Below, piece by piece: positions 7,132-21,215 of a DNA stretch of 23,264 nucleotides. Made by a program: the position numbers and the translations under genes. The notes under the pieces were generated by a model that saw only the letters and a program-made list of their open reading frames with translations, ran no database searches and had not been told where the DNA came from. This stretch comes from a virus. Each line of letters opens with the position of its first letter. Positions within the stretch are counted from its first letter, which is position 1. The stretch is from IMG/VR virus record IMGVR_UViG_3300037041_001477, positions 1 to 23,264 of that record. One strand, given 5' to 3'.

Positions 7132-7626
7132 GTGAACACGTTCCTACCATTCGCATCCTACACCGAGAGCGCCAAGGCTCTCGACCGACTCCGTCTCGGG
7201 AAGCAGCGTCTCGAAGTTCTCCAGATGCTGGTGGCCCTACGGGTCCCGGATCGTCGCGGCTGGCGCAACCATCCTTGCACTCTGGCTTGGCGCGGCTGCT
7301 CGAACTCTCTCGTCCACTACGGCGTCGAGGTCTGTTCGGAGTGGCAGCGGCGTGGATACACGGATACCCTCCTCTCGCAGATCCGTGCCCACTTCGTCCC
7401 GATCGGGAATTTCTCACTGGAGGAGAGCCCCCGGCCCGCCTGGACGCTGGATCACCGGGTGCACGACATGTACCGCCGCCGACTGGTCACGAAGGACCGC
7501 CGCTTCTACTCGTGGAAGTTTCCAGCCTGGGCGAACCTCCCCAACCTGGACCAGACCGACTGGAGTCTCCTCAATGCTCACGTCCCCGCCGTCCCCCAAC
7601 TCGCAGCCCGAAAGGCCCAGTCATGA
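7132..7626 (+). CDS. MSMEG_6728-like / T4 endonuclease V-like pyrimidine dimer glycosylase family protein
   Basis: The 164-residue product begins MNTFLPFASYTESAKALDRLRLGKQRLEVLQ and continues GWRNHPCTLAWRGCSNSLVHYG. This is the pattern of the MSMEG_6728 / pyrimidine-dimer glycosylase-like family: conserved LDxxRLGKQRxE, W-x-x-HP, W-x-G and L-x-x-Y. T4 endonuclease V, the founding relative, cuts the glycosidic bond at UV-induced thymine dimers; activity of this branch is less well known. The GTG start at 7132 was chosen because the family signature begins right there and GGAG lies about 10 bases upstream; the frame is open further upstream but that part is not conserved-looking. The TGA overlaps the next ATG (ATGA). 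A role in DNA repair inside the replication block is likely. Confidence 0.75.
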   Translation: MNTFLPFASYTESAKALDRLRLGKQRLEVLQMLVALRVPDRRGWRNHPCTLAWRGCSNSLVHYGVEVCSEWQRRGYTDTLLSQIRAHFVPIGNFSLEESPRPAWTLDHRVHDMYRRRLVTKDRRFYSWKFPAWANLPNLDQTDWSLLNAHVPAVPQLAARKAQS

Positions 7627-8612
7627 AACTCGTGATCAAGAAGAAGGTCACTGTCGCCCCCGAGTATCAGTTCAACCCGCTGCAGCAGGGGTTATCCCAG
7701 TCGCAGGTCGGGACGCTGATGGAGTGCCAGGAGAAGGCTCGCCTCAGCACCATCCTCGGTTGGACGCCCAAGGGCAGCAGCAAGCCGCTCATCTGGGGCA
7801 CCACCTTCCACGGGATGCTGGAGGCGGGATACAAGGGACTGAGGAAGACGAGGAAGTGGCCGGAGCAGTCTGCGCTGATCATGAATAGCGAGAAGGAACT
7901 GGCCGGGGAATACCCAAACCCGACGAGTACCGTCAAGGACATCATCGAGGAGTGCTTCCTCGAAACCACCCCGATCATCGGACCGTACCGGAAGAAGTGG
8001 GCGGCCCAGGACGACAAGGTCAAGTGGGTCCACGTCGAGGACGCCTTCCGCGTCCCGGTGGTCCCCGGCCTGCCCCCGATCAAGGGGAAGTACGACGCGG
8101 TGTTCGAGCACCCCCAGTTCGGCCTCAGCCTGCTGGAGACCAAGACGAAGTCCCAGATCTCCCACAACCTGACGGAGTACCTTCCACTCGACCTGCAGCT
8201 GGCGTGGTATCTGATCTCGCTGGAGAAGGAGGGGATCCGTCCGAACACGGTCTGGTACAATATCATCCGCCGCCCCGGCCTCAAGCGCGGCAAGGAAGAG
8301 ACGGCACTCCTCTTCCAGGAACGCATCGCGGCCGACGTGAAGACCAGACCCGATCACTACTTCGTCCGGATCCCGGTGACTCTGGAGAAGTCTGAGATGG
8401 CCTTCGCCAAGAATCGGGTCAAGTACCTCCTCGAAGGGTACATGCAGTGGTACAATAACACCGATCCAAGGGAGCGGTGCCTCGGCTTCAACTCCGGGGC
8501 CTGCGAGGGCAAGTACGGCACCTGCTCGTTCCTCCCGATCTGCGCCAACCAAGACTACTCCGGACACTATGTCCGGGAGCACGTATCCCCTGAACTCAAG
8601 GAGCTCAAGTGA
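7623..8612 (+). CDS. PD-(D/E)XK nuclease, RecB/Cas4-like with Fe-S cysteines
   Basis: The 329-residue product has the layout of Cas4/RecB-type phage exonucleases. It shows an N-terminal Cys in LMECQEKARL (C35), a His in FHGMLE (H63), GKYDAVFE with catalytic D158, LLETKTKS with E172-T-K174, and Q192 in LQLAWYLISL. A C-terminal Cys cluster follows (C286, C294, C301, C307). C35 and three of the later Cys residues probably bind a 4Fe-4S cluster, as in AddB and Cas4. Such nucleases resect DNA ends and work with annealing or recombination proteins; a Sak4-like protein lies two genes downstream. The start ATG 7623 overlaps the previous stop, and the N-terminus MKLVIKKK repeats the C-terminus of the H1-like protein. 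The stop overlaps the ThyX start (GTGA). Confidence 0.85.
   Translation: MKLVIKKKVTVAPEYQFNPLQQGLSQSQVGTLMECQEKARLSTILGWTPKGSSKPLIWGTTFHGMLEAGYKGLRKTRKWPEQSALIMNSEKELAGEYPNPTSTVKDIIEECFLETTPIIGPYRKKWAAQDDKVKWVHVEDAFRVPVVPGLPPIKGKYDAVFEHPQFGLSLLETKTKSQISHNLTEYLPLDLQLAWYLISLEKEGIRPNTVWYNIIRRPGLKRGKEETALLFQERIAADVKTRPDHYFVRIPVTLEKSEMAFAKNRVKYLLEGYMQWYNNTDPRERCLGFNSGACEGKYGTCSFLPICANQDYSGHYVREHVSPELKELK
8560..8576. repeat. Perfect 7-bp inverted repeat near the end of the nuclease gene
   Basis: CCGGACA (8560-8566) and TGTCCGG (8570-8576) flank CTA. The repeat is inside the nuclease coding region, 33 bases before the GTG start of the ThyX gene. In mRNA it would form a stable hairpin with a three-base loop and might slow ribosomes or affect coupling to thyX; on DNA it could be a protein site. 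It may also be coding chance. Confidence 0.4.
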
Positions 8613-9700
8613 AGCACGAATACTTCTCCCCCATCGCCGACCACAAAGGCGAGCAACCGACGGTCCTCTGCGACCGTGGTCCCGACGGGATCAAAGTCAA
8701 GCTCGAACGCTGGACGCCGAACGACCCCAACATCTGGCCGAGCCTCCTGGCCCAGGCCGACGCCAGCTACGGCAACATGATCCACCCGAACAAGGCGACC
8801 CTGGACGACGGAGACCGGGAGCGCATCGCCAAGATGTTCACCGGGGCCATGCTGCCTCAGATCCTGGAGCAGTTCCAGTTCAGCTTCCGCGTCGAGGGCG
8901 TCTCCCTCAACTGCACGCACCAGATCGTCCGCACCCGTATCGGGGCCAGCTTCCTCCAGCAGAGCATGCGGAACAACGACGGCAGGCACATGCAGTTCAC
9001 GATCCCGGAGGCTATCGCCCGGGTGATCAACGACGAACCTGGCAAGCGGGCCTGGGACGCCGGGAACTTCAACAGTCTGTTCGAGAAGTACTGCCGCGTC
9101 TTCAACGTGGACTACTTCCTCCCACCCCACGGCGTCCCCAAGGAGGTGGCCCGGGAGATCCTCGAAGACTCGCTGAAGATCCAGAAGGCTGTGTACGCGG
9201 CCCTCCTCGACAGCGGCGTCCACTTTCAGGATGCTCGGCGCTACCTCGCCAGTGGTCACCAGTCCTACCTCTGGTGCAACTACAACTGGCCAGCCCTGAA
9301 GGGTGTGGTCAGCAACCGCACCGAGCACATCGTCATGGACTGGGAGATCGACTGCGTCGCCCAGCTGATGATGCGCGAGGTCTGGCGGAACTGCCCGTGG
9401 TTCATGGCCCACGGCCTCGGGTCCGCCTCCGACTCGCGGGGCAAGGAGGCCTACGCGGAGGTCGCCGACTGGCCCAGCTGCCAGAAGTGGCCCGGTCCGA
9501 CCCGCGAACGGAAGCCGCTCTTCTCCAACGAGCAGTGCCCGTTCTGGGTTCTCTCGCCGGAGTCGCTGGTGAAGGACGGCCCTCCTGTCTGGATCAAGAC
9601 GGACGGGGTGTTCCCCCACAAGATCTGGTGCCAGATCGCGAAGGACTTCGTCCCGAACCACCCGTGGCTGAAGAAGTTCATCGAGCAGGGGGTCGCATGA
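8609..9700 (+). CDS. thyX: Flavin-dependent thymidylate synthase-like protein (ThyX), variant motif
   Basis: The 363-residue product matches the ThyX fold in two regions. Residues 99-121, SLNCTHQIVRTRIGASFLQQ and SMR, correspond to the ThyX signature RHRX7S, and residues 208-246, DARRYLASG...NRTEHIVMDWE, correspond to the C-terminal active-site segment (the catalytic Arg after DA). ThyX converts dUMP to dTMP using methylenetetrahydrofolate, FAD and NADPH. Here the signature reads RTR with Thr for the usual His and has eight rather than seven residues before the second Ser (S119). The protein is also longer than typical ThyX (about 220-270 residues), with a Trp/Pro-rich extension after residue 265. 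The GTG start overlaps the nuclease stop. Either a divergent thymidylate synthase or a related enzyme making another 5-substituted dUMP would fit. Confidence 0.8.
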   Translation: MKHEYFSPIADHKGEQPTVLCDRGPDGIKVKLERWTPNDPNIWPSLLAQADASYGNMIHPNKATLDDGDRERIAKMFTGAMLPQILEQFQFSFRVEGVSLNCTHQIVRTRIGASFLQQSMRNNDGRHMQFTIPEAIARVINDEPGKRAWDAGNFNSLFEKYCRVFNVDYFLPPHGVPKEVAREILEDSLKIQKAVYAALLDSGVHFQDARRYLASGHQSYLWCNYNWPALKGVVSNRTEHIVMDWEIDCVAQLMMREVWRNCPWFMAHGLGSASDSRGKEAYAEVADWPSCQKWPGPTRERKPLFSNEQCPFWVLSPESLVKDGPPVWIKTDGVFPHKIWCQIAKDFVPNHPWLKKFIEQGVA

Positions 9701-10548
9701 AGCTCGCGATCAAGCCCAAGGCCCCGGCCTACGTCCTGCCAACCGAACAGAACGAACCGTCCGACACCATCGGGTCCTACTCGATGCTCCTGTACGGACG
9801 GAAGAAGATCGGCAAGACCAGCCTCGCTGCCGAGTTCCCCGGGGCATTCATCATCTCCTGCGAGCCGGGGGCGAAGGCCCTGCGGGTCTACAAGGAGGAG
9901 GTCCGGGACTGGATCAAGGCGCAGCAGGTGATCGACGCGGTCTGCAAGTCGGACCGCTTCGAGACTATCGTGGTCGACACCATCGACCTCCTGTACGACT
10001 TCATCTTCGACCAGATCTGCACCAAGCAGATGATCGAGCACCCGAACGACGAGAACGACTTCGGCGCGACGTGGCGCAAGATCCGTAAGGCCTTCCGCAT
10101 CGAGATCCAGAAGCTGCTCACCTGCGGCAAGGGGGTCATCTTCCTCAGTCACGACACGGAGCGTGAGGTCGAGGACCGGGAGGGTGGGAAGTTCGACCGC
10201 ATCCAGCCGACCATGGCCAAGCAGGCGATGGAAGAAGTCGAGGGGGTGGTCGACCTGATCGGCCTCTACGACTACGACGGCGACAAGCGGGTGCTCCGAG
10301 TGGCTGGGGACCAGTTCATGGTCGCCGGTTGCCGGTGCAAGGAGAACTTCATCCGCAAGGGCGGCGAGGCCGGGGAGGCCGCCGACCGCATCCGCGTCAT
10401 CGACATGGGCTCCTCTTCCCAGGAATCCTATGCTAACCTCGTCAACGCATTCAACAATCAACAGGTCCTCGTGGATCTGCCTAAGCCGGAGAAGGTCAAG
10501 AAGGTCTTGACCAAGCTGGCACCAAACAAGCCCAACTCCAAGGAGTAA
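9697..10548 (+). CDS. Sak4-like / AAA_24 RecA-fold ATPase
   Basis: The 283-residue product has a RecA-like core with Walker A YGRKKIGKTSLA (G34-T41), Walker B ETIVVDTIDLL (D94), and a sensor-like FLSHDTE. This matches the phage AAA_24/Sak4 group of ATPases, single-stranded DNA annealing proteins related to RecA/Rad51 that usually work with a phage SSB. The SSB-like gene follows directly, which supports the assignment. The ATG at 9697 overlaps the thyX stop (ATGA). The N-terminus MKLAIKPK resembles that of the nuclease and the C-terminus of the H1-like protein. The C-terminus is Lys-rich (KPEKVKKVLTKLAPNKPNSK). Confidence 0.85.
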   Translation: MKLAIKPKAPAYVLPTEQNEPSDTIGSYSMLLYGRKKIGKTSLAAEFPGAFIISCEPGAKALRVYKEEVRDWIKAQQVIDAVCKSDRFETIVVDTIDLLYDFIFDQICTKQMIEHPNDENDFGATWRKIRKAFRIEIQKLLTCGKGVIFLSHDTEREVEDREGGKFDRIQPTMAKQAMEEVEGVVDLIGLYDYDGDKRVLRVAGDQFMVAGCRCKENFIRKGGEAGEAADRIRVIDMGSSSQESYANLVNAFNNQQVLVDLPKPEKVKKVLTKLAPNKPNSKE

Positions 10549-10551
10549 CCC

Positions 10552-11505
10552 ATGGGCCGTCTCGGAATCAAACTCAACAAGAACGTCTTCGCCGCTGGCA
10601 AGGAGAAAGCCAAAGCCTCCGGCGAATACAACGACGTGACCCTGGAGCCGGGTCGCTACGTCTGCATCATCCGCAAGGCCCGTGCGCAGGAGGTCAAGGG
10701 GAACCCCAAGATCATCTTCGACCTGGAGGTCGCCGGTGAGACGGAGAAGGCGGGCGGCACCATCTCGGTGTGGTTCGACCTGTCCGAGGAGAAGATCCAC
10801 CACCTGCTGAAGACCCTGAACAAGCTCGGCTACGATATCGACTCCCTCGACGACGAGGACACGCTGGCCGACATGCTGGAGAACATCGAGGAGACCACCC
10901 CGGTCGTCCGCATCACCGCCAAGCAGGGCGGCGAGTACGTGAACTACTACATCGACAAGAAGCTCGATGAGCTCACGGCGGCCGAGGTCGCGGCTGGTGG
11001 CGGCGACGACGGTGGTGAGACCGCCAAGGATGAAGAGGCGTCGGGCGGCAAGGCCGGGATCAAGGCTGACAGCCCTCCGGCCAAGGCGGCGGCTGCCAAG
11101 GCGGCGGGCAAGAAGACCCCGGCCCCCGAGCCGGAGCCGGAGCCGAAGACGGACCGGGAGAACCTGGCGATGGCGCTGGAGACCATGGACAAGAAGGCGC
11201 TCCAGGAGTACATCACCGACAACGAGCTGGAGATCCTGGTGAAGAAGGCGGACAAGGAGGAAGACGTTCGCGTCAAGATCCTCGACGCCAAGTACCCCGA
11301 GGGCGGCGACAATCCCCCGGCCGACCAGGACAACCCGCCCGCCGAAGAGGAGGCCAGCATCGTGCCGGGCCTCAAGTGCAAGGCCAGCATCAAGGGCAAG
11401 GTCGTCGACGTGACCGTCGTGTCCGTGGACGAGGCTGCCGGGACCGTGAAGGTCAAGGGGCCGCTCGGAGTCGTCTCCGTGCCGGTCGCCCAGCTGTCGC
11501 TCTAG
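10552..11505 (+). CDS. SSB-like protein (DUF669-type) with extra C-terminal modules
   Basis: The 317-residue product begins with a beta-rich domain (about 28-135; LEPGRYVCIIRKARAQEVKG, IIFDLEVAGE, GGTISVWFDLSEEKIHHLLK) resembling DUF669-type phage single-stranded DNA-binding proteins. It continues with an Ala/Pro/Glu linker (about 142-200). A helical module at about 205-247 (TMDKKALQEYITDNELEILV...DVRVKILDAK) resembles HeH/SAP-type DNA-binding motifs. A small beta module (269-317, VPGLKCKASIKGKVVDVTVV) may be SH3-like. The start has AGGAG at 10541-10545. It immediately follows the Sak4-like gene, a common pairing in which SSB and annealing protein cooperate. The N-terminus GRLGIKLNK carries a version of the KL-x-IK peptide. 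The tail is not the simple acidic tip of bacterial SSB. Confidence 0.7.
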   Translation: MGRLGIKLNKNVFAAGKEKAKASGEYNDVTLEPGRYVCIIRKARAQEVKGNPKIIFDLEVAGETEKAGGTISVWFDLSEEKIHHLLKTLNKLGYDIDSLDDEDTLADMLENIEETTPVVRITAKQGGEYVNYYIDKKLDELTAAEVAAGGGDDGGETAKDEEASGGKAGIKADSPPAKAAAAKAAGKKTPAPEPEPEPKTDRENLAMALETMDKKALQEYITDNELEILVKKADKEEDVRVKILDAKYPEGGDNPPADQDNPPAEEEASIVPGLKCKASIKGKVVDVTVVSVDEAAGTVKVKGPLGVVSVPVAQLSL

Positions 11506-11612: not shown

Positions 11613-12149
11613 ATGGTCGAGCCAACCAGGATCTACCTCGCCGGACCGTTCTTCAACGCGGCCCAGATCGAGCTGATCAAGACGATCGAGGACACTCTCG
11701 AGTCTTACAACATCCCCCACTTCAGCCCGCGCAAGCTCGGTCTGAACTCCAATCCATCCACCACCAAGCCGACCCCCGAGCAGGCGGCCAACATCTTCAA
11801 GGCGGACTATCAGGAGATCTGCCGGAGTACGCACGTGCTGGCGGTGGTCGACTGGGCGCTGCCCCCGGGGCAGAGCGTCCACTTGATCCGGGAGGGGACG
11901 ACCGCTTCGATGGACCACGTCTCCCCGGCCCTCAACATCCCCGACAGCGGGACCGTCTGGGAGATGGGCTGCGCCTACGCCCTCCGCGTCCCGGTCATCC
12001 TCTTCACCGCCAACCCCAGCAAGCAGATGAACCTCATGCTGACCCAGTCGGCCAAGGGCTGCCTCTACGGGATCGATCACCTCCAGACGTACCTCGGCAA
12101 TGGGCTCGACCAGGCTTGGCTCGAAGGCTGGAAGGGAGACCATCGGTGA
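11613..12149 (+). CDS. Nucleoside 2-deoxyribosyltransferase-like protein
   Basis: The 178-residue product shows the pattern of the nucleoside 2-deoxyribosyltransferase family: IYLAGPFFNAAQ (7-18) forming the first strand and loop, ADYQEICRSTHVLAVVD (64-80), and DSGTVWEMGCAYAL (111-124) with the catalytic Glu in W-E-M-G (E117). These enzymes exchange bases on deoxyribose or hydrolyse deoxynucleosides and deoxynucleotides. ATG 11613 was chosen because AGGAA lies 7 bases upstream and the family match begins at once; a longer frame from 11517 would run through the structured leader. It sits with ThyX, an HD phosphohydrolase and a DUF6378-like gene, so a role in the nucleotide pool or in making or removing an unusual deoxynucleotide is likely. 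Its stop overlaps the zinc-ribbon gene (GTGA). Confidence 0.75.
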   Translation: MVEPTRIYLAGPFFNAAQIELIKTIEDTLESYNIPHFSPRKLGLNSNPSTTKPTPEQAANIFKADYQEICRSTHVLAVVDWALPPGQSVHLIREGTTASMDHVSPALNIPDSGTVWEMGCAYALRVPVILFTANPSKQMNLMLTQSAKGCLYGIDHLQTYLGNGLDQAWLEGWKGDHR

Positions 12150-12292
12150 GGAATCGCAAAATCGGCATGAGGAATCCTGGACCTCGTGGTCGTAAGGTAC
12201 ACTGCCGTTGCAATGTATTCAAGTCCACCGTGACTAACCCGCACCTGTACGAGTGCCGCTACTGCGGTGGAAAGTTCGTGGTGACACCATGA
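12146..12292 (+). CDS. Small zinc-ribbon protein (48 residues)
   Basis: This short gene fills the gap between the deoxyribosyltransferase and HD genes. Starting at GTG 12146, which overlaps the previous stop (GTGA), it encodes an Arg/Lys-rich N-terminus and then HCRC (C20, C22) and ECRYC (C37, C40), giving a C-x-C-x14-C-x2-C set likely to bind zinc. GGGAG about 8 bases upstream of the GTG supports that start; ATG at 12167 is an alternative. The stop overlaps the next ATG (ATGA), so it fits the coupled operon exactly. Small zinc ribbons often bind nucleic acid or protein partners; no specific function can be given. Confidence 0.7.
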   Translation: MRNRKIGMRNPGPRGRKVHCRCNVFKSTVTNPHLYECRYCGGKFVVTP

Positions 12293-12888
12293 TCCTCAAC
12301 GTCCGAGAGATGATGGTCGGCAAGCCGATCAAGATGCGGTACGTATACCGCTTCCAGGCCTGCCGAGTCAACGACCGGGAGTCAATCATCGAGCACACGG
12401 GTTTCGTCGGTATGTACGCCATGCTCATCGCCATGTACGTCGAGGAGACGACGTTGAACCTGCGGGTGGACTACAAGATCCTCATGCAGCGGGCGATGGT
12501 CCACGACATGGAGGAGGTCGTCACCGGCGACTTCCCCCGTCCGTACAAGTACAGCAACGAGGAACTCAAGCAGGCCCTGGACCGGGCGGCCCCCATGGCC
12601 TTCCGCGAGGTCATCACCGGGTTGGTGGACAAGAAGACCCAGGGGATCCTCGGGAAGGTTTGGGAGCAGGCGAAGGCGGACGACCTGGAGGGGAACATCC
12701 TCCTCCTGGCCGACTTCCTCAGCGCCCTCTCCTACATCGTCCAGGAGGTGCAGGCCGGGAACAAGAGCATGCAGTCCCAGAACTGGACGCTCAGGCAGGC
12801 TCTCGACCACATCGAGACCAAGGTCAACACCGCCCTTCACCCCCTGGTCGAGCAGGCCCGGGCCGTCATGCTGGAGTACATCCCGTGA
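12289..12888 (+). CDS. HD-domain 5'-deoxynucleotidase, YfbR-like
   Basis: The 199-residue product has the HD phosphohydrolase signature: an early His in IIEHTGFV (H36), the HD pair in RAMVHDMEEVVTGDFPRP (H72, D73), and a distal Asp in LLLADFLSAL (D142). The VTGD-x-P segment is typical of the YfbR family, which removes phosphate from deoxynucleoside monophosphates. ATG 12289 was chosen because it overlaps the zinc-ribbon stop; the frame extends upstream to 12253 but only through that gene. In some phages an HD enzyme of this general kind (DatZ) removes dATP to favour an altered base; the partner PurZ is not seen in this window, so I regard ordinary YfbR-like nucleotide salvage as more likely. 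Confidence 0.8.
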   Translation: MILNVREMMVGKPIKMRYVYRFQACRVNDRESIIEHTGFVGMYAMLIAMYVEETTLNLRVDYKILMQRAMVHDMEEVVTGDFPRPYKYSNEELKQALDRAAPMAFREVITGLVDKKTQGILGKVWEQAKADDLEGNILLLADFLSALSYIVQEVQAGNKSMQSQNWTLRQALDHIETKVNTALHPLVEQARAVMLEYIP

Positions 12889-13181
12889 TCGACCGCCCCG
12901 CAATCGAAGCCGTCCACCAGATGATCGTCGAACGCGGCCAGGGGTACGGCGATCCTCAGGCCGGGGGGAAGGCCCTCGGGAAGACCTGGGCTGGGATCCT
13001 CTCGGACGCCCTCCAGACGGAGATCCCGGACCTCTCGCCTAGGGTGGTCTACCTCATGATGGCGGCCCTCAAGCTCAACCGGGCGGCCCGCCCTTTCAAG
13101 TTCTCCCAAGACGACTACGTCGACGGGATCGCCTACCTCCACCTCGCAGAGAACCACAAGGTGTCCAATGACAAGACCTGA
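12885..13181 (+). CDS. DUF6378-like phage protein
   Basis: The 98-residue product is all-alpha and has the pattern of the DUF6378 family common in phages: an ERGQGYGDPQ motif (16-25), a W in the next helix (W35), LSPRVVYLMMAALKLNRAA (50-68), and a final DDYVDGIAYLHLA (76-88). Function of the family is not established; its helical layout and position beside nucleotide enzymes invite comparison with MazG-type nucleotide pyrophosphohydrolases, but the usual E-x-x-E metal motif is not obvious here. GTG 12885 overlaps the HD gene stop (GTGA), which fixes the start. The 3' end overlaps the radical SAM gene by 14 bases. Confidence 0.65.
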   Translation: MIDRPAIEAVHQMIVERGQGYGDPQAGGKALGKTWAGILSDALQTEIPDLSPRVVYLMMAALKLNRAARPFKFSQDDYVDGIAYLHLAENHKVSNDKT

Positions 13182-14190
13182 CCTCGCCTACTACGGCAAG
13201 ATGCTCCACCGCGAACTCGGTCCGATCGCCGGGCAGGTGGAGCTCACATCCTCCTGCTACCAGGAGTGCGCTCACTGCATGTCGTGGCGGGACCACCACT
13301 CCGGGGTCGAGAAGGGTGTGTGGACGTACATCCAGATGGTCAAGCTCCATGAAGAACTTTCGGCTGCTGAGACCTTCGAGCACCTGAGTCTCACCGGTGG
13401 AGACCCGCAAGCCTGGGCTCCACTATGCGACTACCTGGAGTACCACAAGACCTCCGGCGAGCCGTACGGGCTGCAGTGCAACACCACACTCATGCGGAAG
13501 CTCCGGCCCGCCGAGCATGGGATGTGGGACTCGGCGTTCGAGGACATCCGTCTCTCGCTCGACGCGATCACCCCGGCTACCTACCTCGCCACCCGTGGGG
13601 TGGAGGCTGACCCGATCGAGATCCTGGAAAGGTGCCGCGCCTTCCAGCAAGCCCGGGTGGCGATCAACGTCTGCGTCCAGCCCTCCAACATCGACGAGAT
13701 CCCTCAGTTGATCGAGACGGTGGCTCGGGACTTCAAGTTCATCCGGAAGATCATGCTGCTGATCGTGATCGGCCCGGACTCCCTCTCCCAGGAATTCTTT
13801 GACAAGTGGGCGTGCCTCGTACAGGACGAGATTCACACCCATCGGGACGTGCAGGTCTCCTGCGCCGAGGATCCTCGGGATGTCCGCAAGGCCCTGGCCT
13901 CCGGGGCGTACGACAAGCTCAAGTGCCGCGTCGGCGGGTCTACCTTCCACATCAAGGCCAACGGGGATATCTACCCCTGCTGCCTGACGGGCGGTGAAGC
14001 CATCGAGACGGTCCGGGCCTTCCGACTCGGGAACTTCCACACCGACGGATTGATCGACCCTCTCAGCTTCTACAACCGTGGTTGTCACTACGGGCCGGGG
14101 TCGGTCTGCACCAAGATCTGCCAGTGGAAGCAGTTCAACATGAACAAGATCGCGGAGGAGGCGTCGAAGATCAGCCTTTCGATGCCGTGA
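13168..14190 (+). CDS. Radical SAM enzyme with SPASM-like C-terminal cysteines
   Basis: The 340-residue product has the radical SAM signature C-x3-C-x2-C in SSCYQECAHC (C30, C34, C37), a GGDP motif (77-80) for S-adenosylmethionine binding, and IRLSLDA (127-133) as a later barrel strand. The C-terminus carries C253, C271, C272, C306, C314 and C318 around HIKANGDIYPCC, which resembles SPASM/twitch domains holding extra Fe-S clusters. Members act on peptides, cofactors, tRNA or nucleotides by radical chemistry. Here it lies between the DUF6378-like gene, which it overlaps by 14 bases, and DNA polymerase, whose GTG overlaps its stop. This operon position suggests a nucleotide or DNA-related substrate, but a peptide or host-directed substrate cannot be excluded. 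Confidence 0.8.
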   Translation: MTRPDLAYYGKMLHRELGPIAGQVELTSSCYQECAHCMSWRDHHSGVEKGVWTYIQMVKLHEELSAAETFEHLSLTGGDPQAWAPLCDYLEYHKTSGEPYGLQCNTTLMRKLRPAEHGMWDSAFEDIRLSLDAITPATYLATRGVEADPIEILERCRAFQQARVAINVCVQPSNIDEIPQLIETVARDFKFIRKIMLLIVIGPDSLSQEFFDKWACLVQDEIHTHRDVQVSCAEDPRDVRKALASGAYDKLKCRVGGSTFHIKANGDIYPCCLTGGEAIETVRAFRLGNFHTDGLIDPLSFYNRGCHYGPGSVCTKICQWKQFNMNKIAEEASKISLSMP

Positions 14191-16427
14191 AGCTCGCACG
14201 TCTGATCGACCACCGATGCCTGAAGGGGTTCCCCTTCAGTACCCCGGAAGGCTGGGTCGTGACGGACACGGAGACCACGGGCCTCGACCCGTGGCGCTCC
14301 GGCTGCCGTCCCTTCGCCTTCAGCTTCGCCAACGCGGACGGGGAGACGGCCTACGCCCGACTGGCCGTGAACCCCCGCACCCGGCAGGTGATCGTCGACG
14401 AGGACATCCTCGCCCCGATCCGCGAGATCATGGAAGACCCATCCACGACGAAGGTCCTGCACAACGCGATCTTCGATCTCCGTATGTACCTCATGCTGGG
14501 GATCGAGGTCGCCGGGCCGATCTTCGACACGATGGTCGGCATGCATGTGATCAACCCAGACGAGATGCAGTACGGGTTGAAGTACCTCGGGAAGAAGTAC
14601 CTCGGAGTCAGCGACGCGGACCAGAAGGACCTGGAGGAGTCGGTCAAGAAGATCCGCGCTCAGGTCGGCTGGGCGAAGAAGCGGGTGGAGGCGGGGAACC
14701 CCCGACCAGGGGACGAGTGGTTGTCCACCTGGACCACCGCCCCCGACGATGTCACCAATGGCAAGGACGCCTCCCGTGCGGACTACTGGATGGGGGACGT
14801 GGCCGCTTGCGAGAAGTACGCCCGTCTCGACGCCTACCGGACGGCGGTCCTCTTCGAGAACGAGAAGGCGGCCCTGGACCAGGACAAGGAGGACGGCGGC
14901 CATCTCTGGGACTGCATGAAGTCCGAGATCGAGCTGCAGCCTAACCTCTTCGCGATGGAGAACCGGGGGATCGCGATCGACATCGGGCACACCATGAAGC
15001 TGCGGGAGGGGTACCACGGGTTCGCCGTGGAGGCCAAGCAGAAGCTGACCGAGATGGGTCTGGCAGACCTGAACCCGAAGTCTCCGAAGCAGGTGTCGGC
15101 CTACTTCTTCGGGGAGCGCGGACTTAAACCCAATGAGTACTCAACTAACGATGAGGGGGAATCCGTCGCCTGCGTCCACTGCGCGACCCAGGTTGTTGGT
15201 TCTGATGGCAAGCCCGTCCGCCGGGAGACGATGACCAAGACTGGCAAGAAAATCATGCGGGCCATCAAGCGCTCCCCGGGCTGCAAGATCTGCCAGATGA
15301 CCGGGAAGAACCCGACCTGCGACGGGGAGTACTTGCAGAAGATCGCGTGGCGCTTCGACAAGGCGCAGGACAAGATGGTGGTGAACGACGAGGCCGCCTA
15401 CTGGATGCTGCGGTACGACGGATCGAAGCACATGCTGGTTAACTTCTTCGACGTCTACCTCGCGCTGGCCGACGAGGACCCGTACTCCTCTCCAGGAAAC
15501 AAGCGGCTGCACCCCAACTACAAGCAGACCGGGCCGGTGACGGGCCGCCTTGCCTGCGAGAGGCCGAACCTGATGCAGGTGGCCTCGGACGACACGCCCC
15601 GCAAGCACTCCGACATCAGCTACCGGACCCGCGAGTGTTTCGTCGCCAGGGAGAACTACTACCTCTACCTGCCGGACTACTCGCAGGTCGAGATCTGGCT
15701 CTTCGCCTCCCTGGCGAAGGACAAGACCATGCTCAACATTCTCCTGTCTGGCCGAGACTTCCACGGTACCATCGCCCACACCGTGTGGGGGAGCGAGTTC
15801 GACCTGGACGAGGCCCTCCGGTGCAAGAACATCCCGGAGTCCGAGCTGTCCGAGAAGGAGCTGAAGAACCTCAAGACCTACGTGAAGTACCGTAAGCGTT
15901 CGAAGATGCTGATGTTCGGCAAGCTCTATGGCGGCGGCCCGGGGGCCATCGGGGATCTGCTCCAGACGTCCGAGAAGGAGGCGCAGATCTTCATGGACGA
16001 CTACGACCGGCGTCTTCCGGGTATCCCTCGCTTCATGAAGGAGTGCATCCGCACCGCCCGGGAGAAGGGGTACATCCTGAACCCGTTCGGTCGGAAGTTC
16101 CCGATCCCCCGGGGGCTGGCCTACAAGGCCACCAACTACGAGATCCAGGGGACCGCCGCCTCCGTCATGAAGCGCAGCATCAACCGGATCTGTGCTCTCT
16201 CCAGGACGAAGCGGTATGGAGGGCGGATGTTCCCCCTCCTCAACATTCACGACGAGCATGTGATCGAAGTCCACAAGTCGATCCACGGAAAGCAAACCAT
16301 GCAAGACATCATCAAGGCGATGCAGGGCGACGACCATCTTCACCTCGGATGCCCCGTCCCCCTCCCCGTCGGTATGAAGTTCACCAAGACCCGTTGGTCT
16401 GATGTCGAAGAGGTGAAGAGCCTGTGA
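14187..16427 (+). CDS. Family A DNA polymerase with 3'-5' exonuclease and a zinc-finger insert
   Basis: The 746-residue product is the likely phage replicative DNA polymerase. The proofreading domain shows VTDTETTGLDP (D27, E29), VLHNAIFDLRMY and YARLDAYRTAVL. The polymerase domain shows TGRLACERPNLMQVA, motif A LPDYSQVEIW (D497 to E502), motif B KRSKMLMFGKLYGGG, and motif C NIHDEHVIEV (H688, D689, E690). Between the two domains lies an insert with CVHC (C329, C332), CKIC (C366, C369) and C378, a likely zinc site that ordinary PolA lacks. The usual Arg after motif A (IELR) is Trp here. GTG 14187 overlaps the radical SAM stop and gives a normal family length; the frame is open upstream to 14082 but only inside the radical SAM gene. 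Confidence 0.92.
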   Translation: MKLARLIDHRCLKGFPFSTPEGWVVTDTETTGLDPWRSGCRPFAFSFANADGETAYARLAVNPRTRQVIVDEDILAPIREIMEDPSTTKVLHNAIFDLRMYLMLGIEVAGPIFDTMVGMHVINPDEMQYGLKYLGKKYLGVSDADQKDLEESVKKIRAQVGWAKKRVEAGNPRPGDEWLSTWTTAPDDVTNGKDASRADYWMGDVAACEKYARLDAYRTAVLFENEKAALDQDKEDGGHLWDCMKSEIELQPNLFAMENRGIAIDIGHTMKLREGYHGFAVEAKQKLTEMGLADLNPKSPKQVSAYFFGERGLKPNEYSTNDEGESVACVHCATQVVGSDGKPVRRETMTKTGKKIMRAIKRSPGCKICQMTGKNPTCDGEYLQKIAWRFDKAQDKMVVNDEAAYWMLRYDGSKHMLVNFFDVYLALADEDPYSSPGNKRLHPNYKQTGPVTGRLACERPNLMQVASDDTPRKHSDISYRTRECFVARENYYLYLPDYSQVEIWLFASLAKDKTMLNILLSGRDFHGTIAHTVWGSEFDLDEALRCKNIPESELSEKELKNLKTYVKYRKRSKMLMFGKLYGGGPGAIGDLLQTSEKEAQIFMDDYDRRLPGIPRFMKECIRTAREKGYILNPFGRKFPIPRGLAYKATNYEIQGTAASVMKRSINRICALSRTKRYGGRMFPLLNIHDEHVIEVHKSIHGKQTMQDIIKAMQGDDHLHLGCPVPLPVGMKFTKTRWSDVEEVKSL

Positions 16428-18487
16428 GCATCGAGATCTATACCCAAGTCGGACTTGAACTCGCCAAAGTCGGGAGCCAGCTCCTGGGTGAATGCCCGTT
16501 CTGCGGCAAGACTAAGTTCTATGTCGACCCCAACACCACCAAGTACGACTGCAAGGTCTGCGGCGAGCACGGAAACGACAGCACGATCGTCGGACGGCTA
16601 GCCACAGAGGTGTGGCGGCCCGCCCTCACGGACGAGCATGTGGCTGCCCTCAGCCGCTATCGGAAGGGACTACCGGAGGACTCCTTCTGGTTGACCGAGA
16701 CGCTCGGATGGAACGAAGCGCGGGAGTGCTATGTTTGGACCGTGCGGATGGCCGACGGGAGGGTCCGGGGATACCGATACTTCACCATCCCGAAGAAGGG
16801 GAAGAACGCGATCCACAACTCGGGCGGCGGCAAGACCGGCCTCCTGGGATCTGAGCTCCTGGCTGTCCCCGAGCGGAAGAACGAGACGGTCTACATGACC
16901 GAGGGCGAGTGGGACTTCCACGCGACCATCTGGCTCCTGATGGTCGTCCGGCAGGATGGGATCGTTATCTCTGTCCCCGGGGCAGGGGTCCTCCCGGACC
17001 AGATCCTCGGAGACCTTGCCGGTCGGAACATCGTCCTCCTCTACGACAACGATCAAGCCGGGCAGAACGGATGCTACTCGGCGTGGTCGAAGCTCAAGGC
17101 TTCCGCCCGGTCGGTCAAGTGCCTCCACTGGACGAAGGAGAAGAAGGATGGGTACGACCTCAGCGATCTGGTGATGGAGAACGTTCGTAAGCCCAAGGAC
17201 GCCTTCGGGTACATCCAGGCCCAGACCAAGGACAAGCCAGCCAAGGAGCCACCCGCTGTGGCCGCCCGGCAGGCGGCGATCAACGCCAAGCAAGCGGACC
17301 AAGAGAAGCTGACTCCGGCCACTGTCGAGGAGCTTCATGCCGTATACAAGCGTTGGCTCTGCCTAGAGAACACCGACCTCCTGGACGTGGCCATGGGCTG
17401 CCTCTGGACCTGCCACCTTCCAGGAAATCCGATCTGGCTCTTCATCGTCAGCCCTCCCAGCAGCAGCAAGTCCGAGGTGCTGGTGCCAGTCTCGGACTGG
17501 TGGCGCTGCTACGCCCTTAGCAACGTGTCGTCCAAGGGGCTGGTCTCCGGCTTCGCGGGGCAGGCCGGGTCGGACCCATCCCTCCTGGCGAAGATGGACG
17601 GGGTGCCCGGGGCGTTGATCGTGAAGGATCTCACCCCGCTGATCCAGTCGAATCCCGTGGAGCGGGACGAAGTCTTCGGGATCCTCCGCGACGCCTACGA
17701 CGGGTCGTGCTCGAAGGACTTCGGCAACGGTCTTCGTCGGGAGTACAAGAAGTTGAACTTCGCCATCCTGGCTGGCGTCACTCCGGCTATCGATGCCATG
17801 TCCCACGTTGCCATGGGAGAACGCTTCCTCAAGTTCCGCCCAGACAAGGAGACCCGCCGGGCGGACGAAGAGGCTCGGGCCATCAGGGCGATCCAGAACA
17901 CGTCCATACTGGAGAAGATGCGGGAGGAGCTACGGGACATTAGCGTCCGTTGCCTCCTCCGCCCGTTTGACAAGGAGCGGGTCCCATCGCCCGACCCTGA
18001 GGCCATGGAGTTCCTGGCCCGTCTCGCCCAGCTGACGGCTTGGATGCGTGGCACCACGCTGATGGACGAACGGTCGGGGAAGTCGATCGCGGCCCCGATG
18101 GTGGAGGCGTGCCCCCGTCTCGCGATCCAGTTCGTGAAGCTCTCCCAGGGGATCGCCCTGCACCTCGGCGTTGACAGCATCTCCGACCAACGGGTCAAGT
18201 CGCTCATCCGTCGGGTGGCCCTCCACACCGGGGATGCGATCACGATCCACGTGTTCCAGACCATCTGGCGCATCGGGGTTCCTACGAACAAGAAGGAGGT
18301 CGTCCGGATCCTTAGGACGTACAACTTCACGACCGTCAGCGCGGTCTTCGACAAGATGGTCGCCATTGACCTGATCAGCCGTGTTGGAGACATCGAGTAC
18401 AGGGTGTCGGAAGACGCAGCCCGGCTTGTGGAGAGCACCAAGCTGTTCGACGGCCTCCCGCGCTCTGACCCCTTCTGGAAGGCCTAG
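16424..18487 (+). CDS. DNA primase with zinc finger and Toprim domain, fused to a P-loop-like domain
   Basis: The 687-residue product begins with a primase zinc finger (CPFC 24-27, CKVC 43-46). A Toprim domain follows (TEGEWDF with E160; LLYDNDQAGQ with D208 and D210), the catalytic core of DnaG-type primases. After a charged linker (about 265-300) a second region resembles a helicase or ATPase domain: FIVSPPSSSKSEVL (340-353) in the Walker A place and ALIVKDLTPLI (397-407) in the Walker B place. Both key Gly residues of Walker A are Ser here (S-P-P-S-S-S-K-S), so ATP binding may be altered. It probably primes and may help unwind DNA for the adjacent polymerase. GTG overlaps the polymerase stop. 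It is the last gene of the rightward block. Confidence 0.85.
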   Translation: MSIEIYTQVGLELAKVGSQLLGECPFCGKTKFYVDPNTTKYDCKVCGEHGNDSTIVGRLATEVWRPALTDEHVAALSRYRKGLPEDSFWLTETLGWNEARECYVWTVRMADGRVRGYRYFTIPKKGKNAIHNSGGGKTGLLGSELLAVPERKNETVYMTEGEWDFHATIWLLMVVRQDGIVISVPGAGVLPDQILGDLAGRNIVLLYDNDQAGQNGCYSAWSKLKASARSVKCLHWTKEKKDGYDLSDLVMENVRKPKDAFGYIQAQTKDKPAKEPPAVAARQAAINAKQADQEKLTPATVEELHAVYKRWLCLENTDLLDVAMGCLWTCHLPGNPIWLFIVSPPSSSKSEVLVPVSDWWRCYALSNVSSKGLVSGFAGQAGSDPSLLAKMDGVPGALIVKDLTPLIQSNPVERDEVFGILRDAYDGSCSKDFGNGLRREYKKLNFAILAGVTPAIDAMSHVAMGERFLKFRPDKETRRADEEARAIRAIQNTSILEKMREELRDISVRCLLRPFDKERVPSPDPEAMEFLARLAQLTAWMRGTTLMDERSGKSIAAPMVEACPRLAIQFVKLSQGIALHLGVDSISDQRVKSLIRRVALHTGDAITIHVFQTIWRIGVPTNKKEVVRILRTYNFTTVSAVFDKMVAIDLISRVGDIEYRVSEDAARLVESTKLFDGLPRSDPFWKA

Positions 18488-19958: not shown

Positions 19959-21137
19959 TTATTTCACCATGGCCAGGAGGTGGGGGATCTGGGAGTCGAG
20001 GGTGGTGCGGCGGTCGCCGTTGCCGTAGACTTCCTGGGAGAGTCGGGTCACGCCGGTGACCATCCCCCAGACCGTACGGGGGTTCACCCGATCGGCATCG
20101 CGGGATGCGGCGAGGTGGTAGGCCGCCATCAGGTCCTTCTGAGGGATCTTGACACGGCGGTTCTTGAACACCGCCTCGACGGTCTCCAGGGCGTTCTTCC
20201 CCAGCTCGACCGTCTTGGCCATCTCGATGGTTCGAACCATTTCACGGGTGCCGTTCTGGATCCAGAGATCCAGGTCCTGGGCCACCGCCTCGATCGCCCG
20301 GGTCTCGGCCTGCTTGCCGAGGTGGCGGATGCTGATCTCCTTGATGTCCTTGACGTCCCACACGATATGGTTGCCGCAGACGTGGTCGTAGGCGAACATC
20401 ACGATCTCGCAGCTGCCGTCGCCGACTTCGGTGTTGCGGAAGAAGGCCCCGCGCTGGAGCACCTGCCCGGTGCCGACGTCGATCTCGCCTCCGCCCTTGA
20501 CCATGAACACGAACATGTTCCGGTCTCCGAGGTAGAGACCCGCCGGGGCGATCGGGTCGCCCTCACCGAGTCCCCAGCCGACCTTGGCGGTCTTCCAACG
20601 GACGACGTCCTCCTTGGAGACTCGGCGGGTCCGTGCGGCAGCGGTGCGGCCATTCGGGCGGCCCGGGGGCACGATCCATCCCCGGGATTCGAGTCCCTGC
20701 AACCCTTCGACGATCTTGTGGTTCGGGATGTAGCCGTACTTGTTCGACACGAGGCATTCGACCCGGCCCAGCGAGACGTGGGCGACGCACTCCTTGGCGA
20801 AGTGCCGACGGTTGTCCTCCTCCGAGAGGTGGAAGTTCAGGAGGTCGGCGGCCCGCTCGGCGGGCAGCGTCTGCAGGTACTCGGCCGGAGCGCCGAGCTT
20901 CCCGGCGATCTGCCGGAAGGACCAGTCGGTGAAGACCTGGTTGGCGTGGCCGGGGATGTTGAGTAGGAGGCCCCGGTCGGAGGTGGCGTGGAAGGCCAGC
21001 TTCTCGGGCGGGGCCTCGATGCGCTGACGGTTCTGGTGTTGAGCCAGAGATGCGAGGTACAGGGCGTTGAGGTCCCAGTAGCGTTCGTCATCGGGGCGCG
21101 AGGCCCACTGGTTGCTGGCGGTCATGAGGTCGGGCAT
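19959..21137 (-). CDS. DUF932 phage/plasmid-like protein
   Basis: The 392-residue product has the pattern of DUF932 proteins found on phages and plasmids: ECLVSNKYGYIPNHKIVEGL, GLYLGDRNMFVFMV, and GAFFRNTEVGDGSCEIVMFA followed by YDHVCGNHIVWDV. The molecular role of the family is not established; many members lie beside replication or mobile-element genes. I prefer ATG 21137 because AAGGAG lies about 7 bases upstream; the frame continues to 21179 without a better site. It is the longest gene of the leftward block, and the gap of 78 bases upstream is one of the few in that operon, so a promoter might lie there. Confidence 0.75.
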   Translation of the reverse strand: MPDLMTASNQWASRPDDERYWDLNALYLASLAQHQNRQRIEAPPEKLAFHATSDRGLLLNIPGHANQVFTDWSFRQIAGKLGAPAEYLQTLPAERAADLLNFHLSEEDNRRHFAKECVAHVSLGRVECLVSNKYGYIPNHKIVEGLQGLESRGWIVPPGRPNGRTAAARTRRVSKEDVVRWKTAKVGWGLGEGDPIAPAGLYLGDRNMFVFMVKGGGEIDVGTGQVLQRGAFFRNTEVGDGSCEIVMFAYDHVCGNHIVWDVKDIKEISIRHLGKQAETRAIEAVAQDLDLWIQNGTREMVRTIEMAKTVELGKNALETVEAVFKNRRVKIPQKDLMAAYHLAASRDADRVNPRTVWGMVTGVTRLSQEVYGNGDRRTTLDSQIPHLLAMVK

Positions 21138-21215
21138 GGTGTTCTCCTTGGCGCTGTGCGCCGGGGGGATTATGAGCATCGGGCATCCGATTGCTCGGGC
21201 TATTTTCGGGACGTC

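Follow-up and report, generated by a model that had tools for sequence, protein, structure and literature searches.

Why would a virus couple a radical SAM (S-adenosylmethionine) enzyme to a series of nucleotide-pool enzymes and a DNA polymerase? The question is raised by IMG/VR virus record IMGVR_UViG_3300037041_001477, a linear virus fragment of 23,264 bp that was analysed over its whole length (hereafter the window), and within which absences carry little weight. An earlier reading of this DNA from its sequence only had described a nucleoside 2-deoxyribosyltransferase (NDT), a zinc ribbon, an HD phosphohydrolase, a DUF6378 protein, a radical SAM/SPASM enzyme and a family A DNA polymerase (PolA) as one coupled string, and had proposed a new pathway to a modified base. 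All of these genes are present on the + strand, and from NDT to the primase that follows PolA (11613-18487) seven genes succeed one another with each junction overlapping by 4 to 14 bases. A key partner lies beyond the range which that reading covered, namely a ThyX-like protein of the Thy1 family that is part of the set (Table 1). We judge it reasonably probable that this cassette yields a pyrimidine deoxynucleotide modified at C5 while removing the ordinary precursors that compete with it, and that the modified base enters phage DNA via the polymerase.

A cassette that recurs beside the DNA polymerase

Relatives were sought in 2.9 million viral contigs, and profile scans for the primase, PolA and the ThyX-like protein yielded 71 non-redundant ThyX-like loci. 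The arrangement NDT-HD-DUF6378-(variable slot)-ThyX-like-PolA-primase was found in ~30 diverse non-redundant operons of the PolA type, with the primase directly after PolA in most of them, which bears out the earlier view of linked nucleotide-remodelling genes at a DNA polymerase and shows the cassette to be conserved. The same order with a radical SAM gene in the slot recurs in contigs that are ~37-42% identical in the radical SAM protein (37% in L003, whose corresponding gene is DUF6378-like), and the cluster is therefore beyond chance; conservation of gene order had been put forward as a check, and it holds. A limited literature search found no description of the cassette.

The 41 PolA-type ThyX-like loci carry NDT (30), HD (31), DUF6378 (27), radical SAM (13) and short-chain dehydrogenase (8) genes, and the 23 Pol III-type loci a flavoprotein (21), a class III aminotransferase (11), radical SAM (7) and a dehydrogenase (3). 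In the 90 PolA loci whose upstream sequence is long enough, NDT and HD occur together in 17/17 cases and never without the ThyX-like gene. Since kinship can mimic co-occurrence, phylogeny-aware contrasts were drawn on the PolA tree: changes in NDT and in HD coincide (7:0, p=0.016), and the ThyX-like gene is associated with HD at a median p of 0.03 and with NDT at a median p of 0.06. Because of these contrasts, NDT, HD and the ThyX-like protein are seen to behave as one unit. The cassette requires at least eight changes on supported branches of this tree; cassette PolAs stand in several places on it, and a dedicated polymerase clade like DpoZ is not clear.

The motif stretches YLAxPFF, DxGTxWE and NLM of NDT, seen in the alignment with PDB 6evs, are kept in 32/38, 34/38 and 36/38 cassette NDTs, respectively. 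By profile, the HD protein is predicted to be of the DatZ type (YfbR-like), matching PF12917 and phrog_7076, which is annotated as dATP triphosphohydrolase. An open reading frame similar to the zinc ribbon is found in L034 at 1828-1989. For DUF6378, an AlphaFold2 four-helix model (predicted local distance difference test score 88.5) found no fold match in the PDB, profile searches gave no match to MazZ, DUF550 or DUF5664, and assignment as a MazG-like pyrophosphohydrolase was unsupported by Pfam or fold search. In L004 (9217-9978), L007 (5450-6220) and L013 (6798-7670), a HAD phosphatase and a DUF6378-like domain form one protein, near the radical SAM gene in the first two, and this fusion ties DUF6378 to nucleotide phosphate chemistry.

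Table 1. Position and supporting matches of the cassette genes and other features of the window.
Feature	Position	Strand	Matches and remarks
ThyX-like protein (Thy1 family, 363 amino acids)	8609..9700	+	PF02511 3.2e-24; proposed synthase of modified dUMP
Nucleoside 2-deoxyribosyltransferase (NDT)	11613..12149	+	PF05014 7.6e-16; PDB 6evs 4.6e-10
Zinc ribbon (48 amino acids)	12146..12292	+	four Cys; Zn_ribbon_SprT 0.0043, below cut-off
YfbR/DatZ-like HD phosphohydrolase	12289..12888	+	PF12917 4.2e-27; phrog_7076 2.5e-22; PDB YfbR 2.4e-10
DUF6378 protein	12885..13181	+	PF19905 2.9e-10
Radical SAM/SPASM enzyme	13168..14190	+	PF04055 2.6e-07 and PF13186 SPASM 2e-05, both above cut-off
Family A DNA polymerase (PolA) with 3'-5' exonuclease	14187..16427	+	PF00476 3.4e-49; PF01612 1.4e-13
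Primase/helicase-like protein (zinc ribbon and Toprim)	16424..18487	+	phrog_47 1.3e-17
Sak4-like AAA protein, conserved neighbour, replication/recombination	9697..10548	+	PF13479 3e-39; phrog_124 3.7e-35
SSB-like acidic protein, conserved neighbour	10552..11505	+	putative function, from position only
Pyrimidine dimer DNA glycosylase	7132..7626	+	PF03013 9.7e-21; directly 5' of exonuclease gene
DUF932 protein	19959..21179	-	within block of small genes in opposite orientation

The position of the Sak4-like gene is kept in L034 and L068, and an open reading frame similar to the SSB-like gene lies between the Sak4-like gene and NDT in these two loci as well as in L036, L043 and L064.

The ThyX-like protein and the exchangeable slot

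The ThyX-like protein of the window shares with canonical ThyX the Thy1 fold family, the first Arg of the RHR motif and the Ser/Arg of the downstream motif, but differs from it in the replacement of N85/E86, in a Cys-bearing C-terminal extension and in the motif itself, where the canonical RHRX7S has become RTR with X8S spacing (RTRIGASFLQQSMRNN at the site of RHRIASYNELSGRY in T. maritima). Among 39 ThyX-like relatives, all keep the first Arg, whereas 16 have another residue in place of the His. These motif residues have known roles in ThyX, and their changes suggest an altered chemistry for the window protein. The thyX equivalog model TIGR02170 (cut-off 87.9 bits), which the controls STSV1 ThyX (205.7 bits) and SP-15 gp9 (120.4 bits) pass, is failed by the ThyX-like proteins of the window (55.0 bits) and L038 (54.1 bits); judging from L004, a Pol III-branch member that passes it at 97.4 bits, divergence appears to be strongest in the PolA branch. 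In PDB searches for the ThyX-like and radical SAM proteins, single-sequence queries remained without match and profile queries matched. Neither the core ThyX-like protein nor the window radical SAM enzyme found a match in a scan of 84,980 prokaryote genomes, the pattern step of which limits sensitivity, and tblastn against 50,697 phage genomes detected no relative of the radical SAM enzymes of the window, L038 and L004.

Other arrangements were observed around ThyX-like genes. L195, L251, L265 and probably L086 encode a further Thy1 paralogue (motif HRHxSFFSxSHQL) near or directly 5' of the radical SAM gene, and an N6/N4 DNA methyltransferase stands between the ThyX-like gene and PolA in L002 (1678-2628). 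In L009 and L216-L239 (11 non-redundant phages), a ThyX-like protein, a flavoprotein and a class III aminotransferase, a candidate tailoring set, are encoded beside Pol III. The flavoprotein (phrog_4828) and the ThyX-like protein each have matches, spanning most of their length, in 357 phages (L267, which is PQ850631 Bas101, L013, L012 and L014), with agreeing genus counts (Pseudomonas 291, Escherichia 27).

All 25 members of the radical SAM family hold the CX3CX2C cluster motif, and SPASM cysteines 253, 271, 272, 314 and 318 are invariant in alignment A12. The C termini in the PolA group nearly all end in -MP (LSMP, LAMP, MTMP), with two in -IP, a conserved extreme end. The structural model fits the SPASM/MoaA/viperin class, its top matches including SkfB, SuiB, BlsE, MoaA and viperin, a class that contains both peptide and nucleotide enzymes and is thus undecisive for the substrate. 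For QueE, of 7-deazaguanine DNA modification, the TIGR03365 score is 13.2 bits against the 206.1 needed. The enzyme could be unconnected with DNA precursors and instead modify RNA, peptides or some metabolite of the host, its place in the operon being a matter of expression timing; we regard this as quite improbable. Peptide maturases (SkfB, CteB and SuiB) are indeed among the nearest solved structures, but the nucleotide enzymes viperin, MoaA and BlsE match the fold too, and no precursor peptide gene was noticed. An unbiased profile search of the viral contigs also retrieved 18 radical SAM loci that span PolA-type and Pol III-type phages, and 17 of them, in both backgrounds alike, encode a Thy1 protein (16 ThyX-like by hidden Markov model, or HMM, and L211 by Pfam at 1.2e-15); the remaining one, L206, holds NDT, HD and DUF6378.

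The sequence-only reading had in effect placed the radical SAM enzyme at the centre of the cluster, a view that has to be given up: the centre is the ThyX-like protein, and 19 of the 30 PolA-type operons with NDT and HD lack radical SAM. Eleven of the 30 carry radical SAM and six a short-chain dehydrogenase, the two never together in one PolA-type operon (a chance of ~0.05 by hypergeometric arithmetic that ignores kinship). In contrast to the aminotransferase, PolA-type radical SAM genes are scattered on the ThyX-like tree (11 changes, at least six forced) and show no clear clustering, given that 82 of 500 shuffles came out as low. In L068, the nearest relative of the window (58% in the ThyX-like protein, 60% in PolA), DUF6378 overlaps PolA directly with no radical SAM gene between them. 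A profile search run without positive control found no radical SAM gene elsewhere in 14 records of cassettes that lack it, some of which may be fragments. Because it is scattered on the tree and missing from the closest relative, radical SAM is an exchangeable accessory in an optional tailoring slot and not part of the cassette core. Its absence from otherwise similar operons had been named in advance as one half of what would speak against a modification pathway, the other being virion DNA with only standard nucleosides. The genomic half is what is seen; a dehydrogenase or aminotransferase replaces radical SAM elsewhere, however, and this replacement is more in keeping with a tailoring step than with a refutation of such a pathway.

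Two groups of radical SAM loci were set aside, L022-L026 and L029 as looking like another family, and L008 (2896-6037) and L019 (7232-12254) as looking like a separate cytosine-type system. In the latter two, a distant radical SAM gene lies beside genes for a nucleotide kinase, a MazG-like protein and a ThyA-like protein whose residue at the position of E. coli Asn177 is Asp, which is the dCMP hydroxymethylase type; L008 adds a glycosyltransferase-like gene, and the whole is likely a cytosine modification cluster.

The cassette might also serve ordinary nucleotide supply, in which case the ThyX-like protein would make dTMP, HD and NDT would recycle host nucleotides, DUF6378 would balance pools, the bases would be standard and the slot enzymes mere passengers. 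No ThyA-type synthase (PF00303) was found in any of 18 cassette records, which usually hold a single Thy1 protein, salvage roles are known for the HD and NDT families, such genes are common in phages, and the universally kept first Arg agrees with this explanation. It leaves unexplained, however, why radical SAM, a dehydrogenase or an aminotransferase adjoins the ThyX-like gene, why the ThyX-like protein has diverged and why it is the constant companion of NDT and HD, and we consider it rather unlikely.

A candidate pathway among known systems

The ThyX-like enzyme at the cassette centre points to a pyrimidine product, and from the observed genes, catalytic motifs, conserved cassette and slot exchange we infer every chemical step of the favoured pathway, as well as the DNA modification itself. 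The ThyX-like flavoenzyme would place a carbon unit onto C5 of dUMP, and the side chain would then be altered by radical SAM or, in relatives, by the dehydrogenase or aminotransferase. The HD phosphohydrolase would convert competing dNTPs or dNMPs (e.g., thymidine nucleotides) to nucleosides, NDT would remove or exchange their base and so block re-use, DUF6378 would probably aid pool control, and PolA would incorporate the modified dNTP. HD followed by NDT forms a natural sequence, leading from the nucleotide via the nucleoside to the base, and this would account for their joint gain and loss. Such a pathway would be a variant form of base replacement at the nucleotide level in phage DNA, and there is a fair prospect that it represents a larger new class.

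Z-genome phages (PurZ/PurZ0, DatZ, DmtZ, MazZ, DUF5664 and DpoZ), to which the sequence-only reading had aptly compared the cluster, manage their nucleotide pools with YfbR-like DatZ and NDT-family DmtZ, and have in common with the window a YfbR-like HD protein, an NDT-family protein, a phage PolA and a further small protein with a probable role in the nucleotide pool (PMC12884076). In spite of this likeness, we give almost no credence to a variant Z-genome (2-aminoadenine) system. The window has a ThyX-like protein, which is a pyrimidine enzyme, and radical SAM, pointing to a pyrimidine instead of a purine; as already supposed, this is not a PurZ system, the adenylosuccinate synthetase family (PF00709) being found in none of the 18 records, some possibly fragments; and the window PolA scores 149.8 bits against the DpoZ model NF038380, whose cut-off is 500.

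E. coli phages of the genus Wifcevirus are reported to resist restriction by a mechanism without known basis (PMC11990801), and they carry a flavoprotein-ThyX-like-HAD/DUF6378-dehydrogenase set. Wifcevirus, Pbunavirus and Carpasinavirus share with the window a ThyX-like protein, of a sister branch, and a DUF6378-like domain, and two of these genera also have a dehydrogenase; they differ in having Pol III, not PolA, and a flavoprotein, and no NDT, HD or radical SAM gene was found within the stretches examined. The restriction resistance of Wifcevirus would fit an unrecognised DNA modification and is not proof of one.

The thymidine-hypermodifying phages M6, ViI and phi W-14 likely have C5-modified deoxyuridine as a target in common with the cassette. 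They depend on a hydroxymethylase of the ThyA type, unlike the cassette, whose records lack ThyA (0/18), and their later steps are proposed to follow replication; phages are known to have enzymes that work on modified thymidine within DNA. Such precedents favour post-replicative hypermodification, in which hydroxymethyl-dUMP from the ThyX-like enzyme would be incorporated and the base then altered within DNA by radical SAM and others, and so does gp130 of Bacillus phage SP-15, a proposed hydroxymethyluridylate synthase (PMC5977210). We nevertheless hold this route to be improbable: the tie of the pool genes NDT and HD to the cassette suggests control at the nucleotide level, and the DNA kinase or transferase genes of such pathways were unnoticed among the neighbours, no search having been aimed at them.

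In SP-15 itself, 5-dihydroxypentyluracil (DHPU) is made before DNA synthesis (PMC5977210). NDT (gp127), a dehydrogenase (gp129) and the Thy1 protein gp130 are encoded close together in SP-15, which also has HD (gp90) and PolA, and the cassette HMMs match its NDT (1.1e-25) and HD (5.6e-55). Gp130 passes PF02511 at 26.4 bits and reaches only 26.7 bits with TIGR02170. Among cultured phages, the core ThyX-like protein has its best match (2e-16) in Listeria phage LIS04, a relative of SP-15, where NDT lies three genes 5' of the matching gene. Both phages share NDT, a YfbR-like HD nucleotidase, a Thy1 protein and PolA with the window, from which SP-15 differs by the lack of radical SAM, by added sugar-transfer genes and by the distribution of these genes over separate clusters. 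The dehydrogenase beside Thy1, a feature of SP-15, is not in the window and is present in cassettes L036, L064, L069, L075 and L076.

Several points weigh against a modified pyrimidine as the product. The ThyX-like protein may be needed for dTMP, no other thymidylate synthase being found in most of the 18 cassette records, and most cassette records are fragments, with presence and absence counts set by HMM cut-offs of our own choice. The likeness to SP-15 involves a weak Thy1 match, gp130 being distantly similar, LIS04 has no annotated dehydrogenase next to its ThyX-like gene, and we know of no DNA modification in the Pbunavirus ThyX-like branch.

A wider idea, which we advance tentatively and which may well prove wrong, is that ThyX-like flavoenzymes mark a broad and so far overlooked class of systems that make DNA bases in phages, which would extend dUMP at C5 and, with exchangeable tailoring enzymes (radical SAM, dehydrogenase or class III aminotransferase), give rise to several new bases. 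It would cover both DHPU synthesis in SP-15 and the restriction resistance of Wifcevirus, and the window, with its radical SAM variant, would give rise to an undescribed base. If true, it would provide a modular path to pyrimidine-modified genomes that is ThyX-based instead of ThyA-based, and place radical SAM chemistry in nucleotide-level DNA precursor synthesis. It would also supply candidate genes for the DHPU of SP-15, a chemistry of the 1970s whose core enzymes are so far proposals, and a cause for the restriction resistance of Wifcevirus, a genus distantly related to the therapy phages of Pbunavirus. With related sets in cultured phages, the idea is directly testable.

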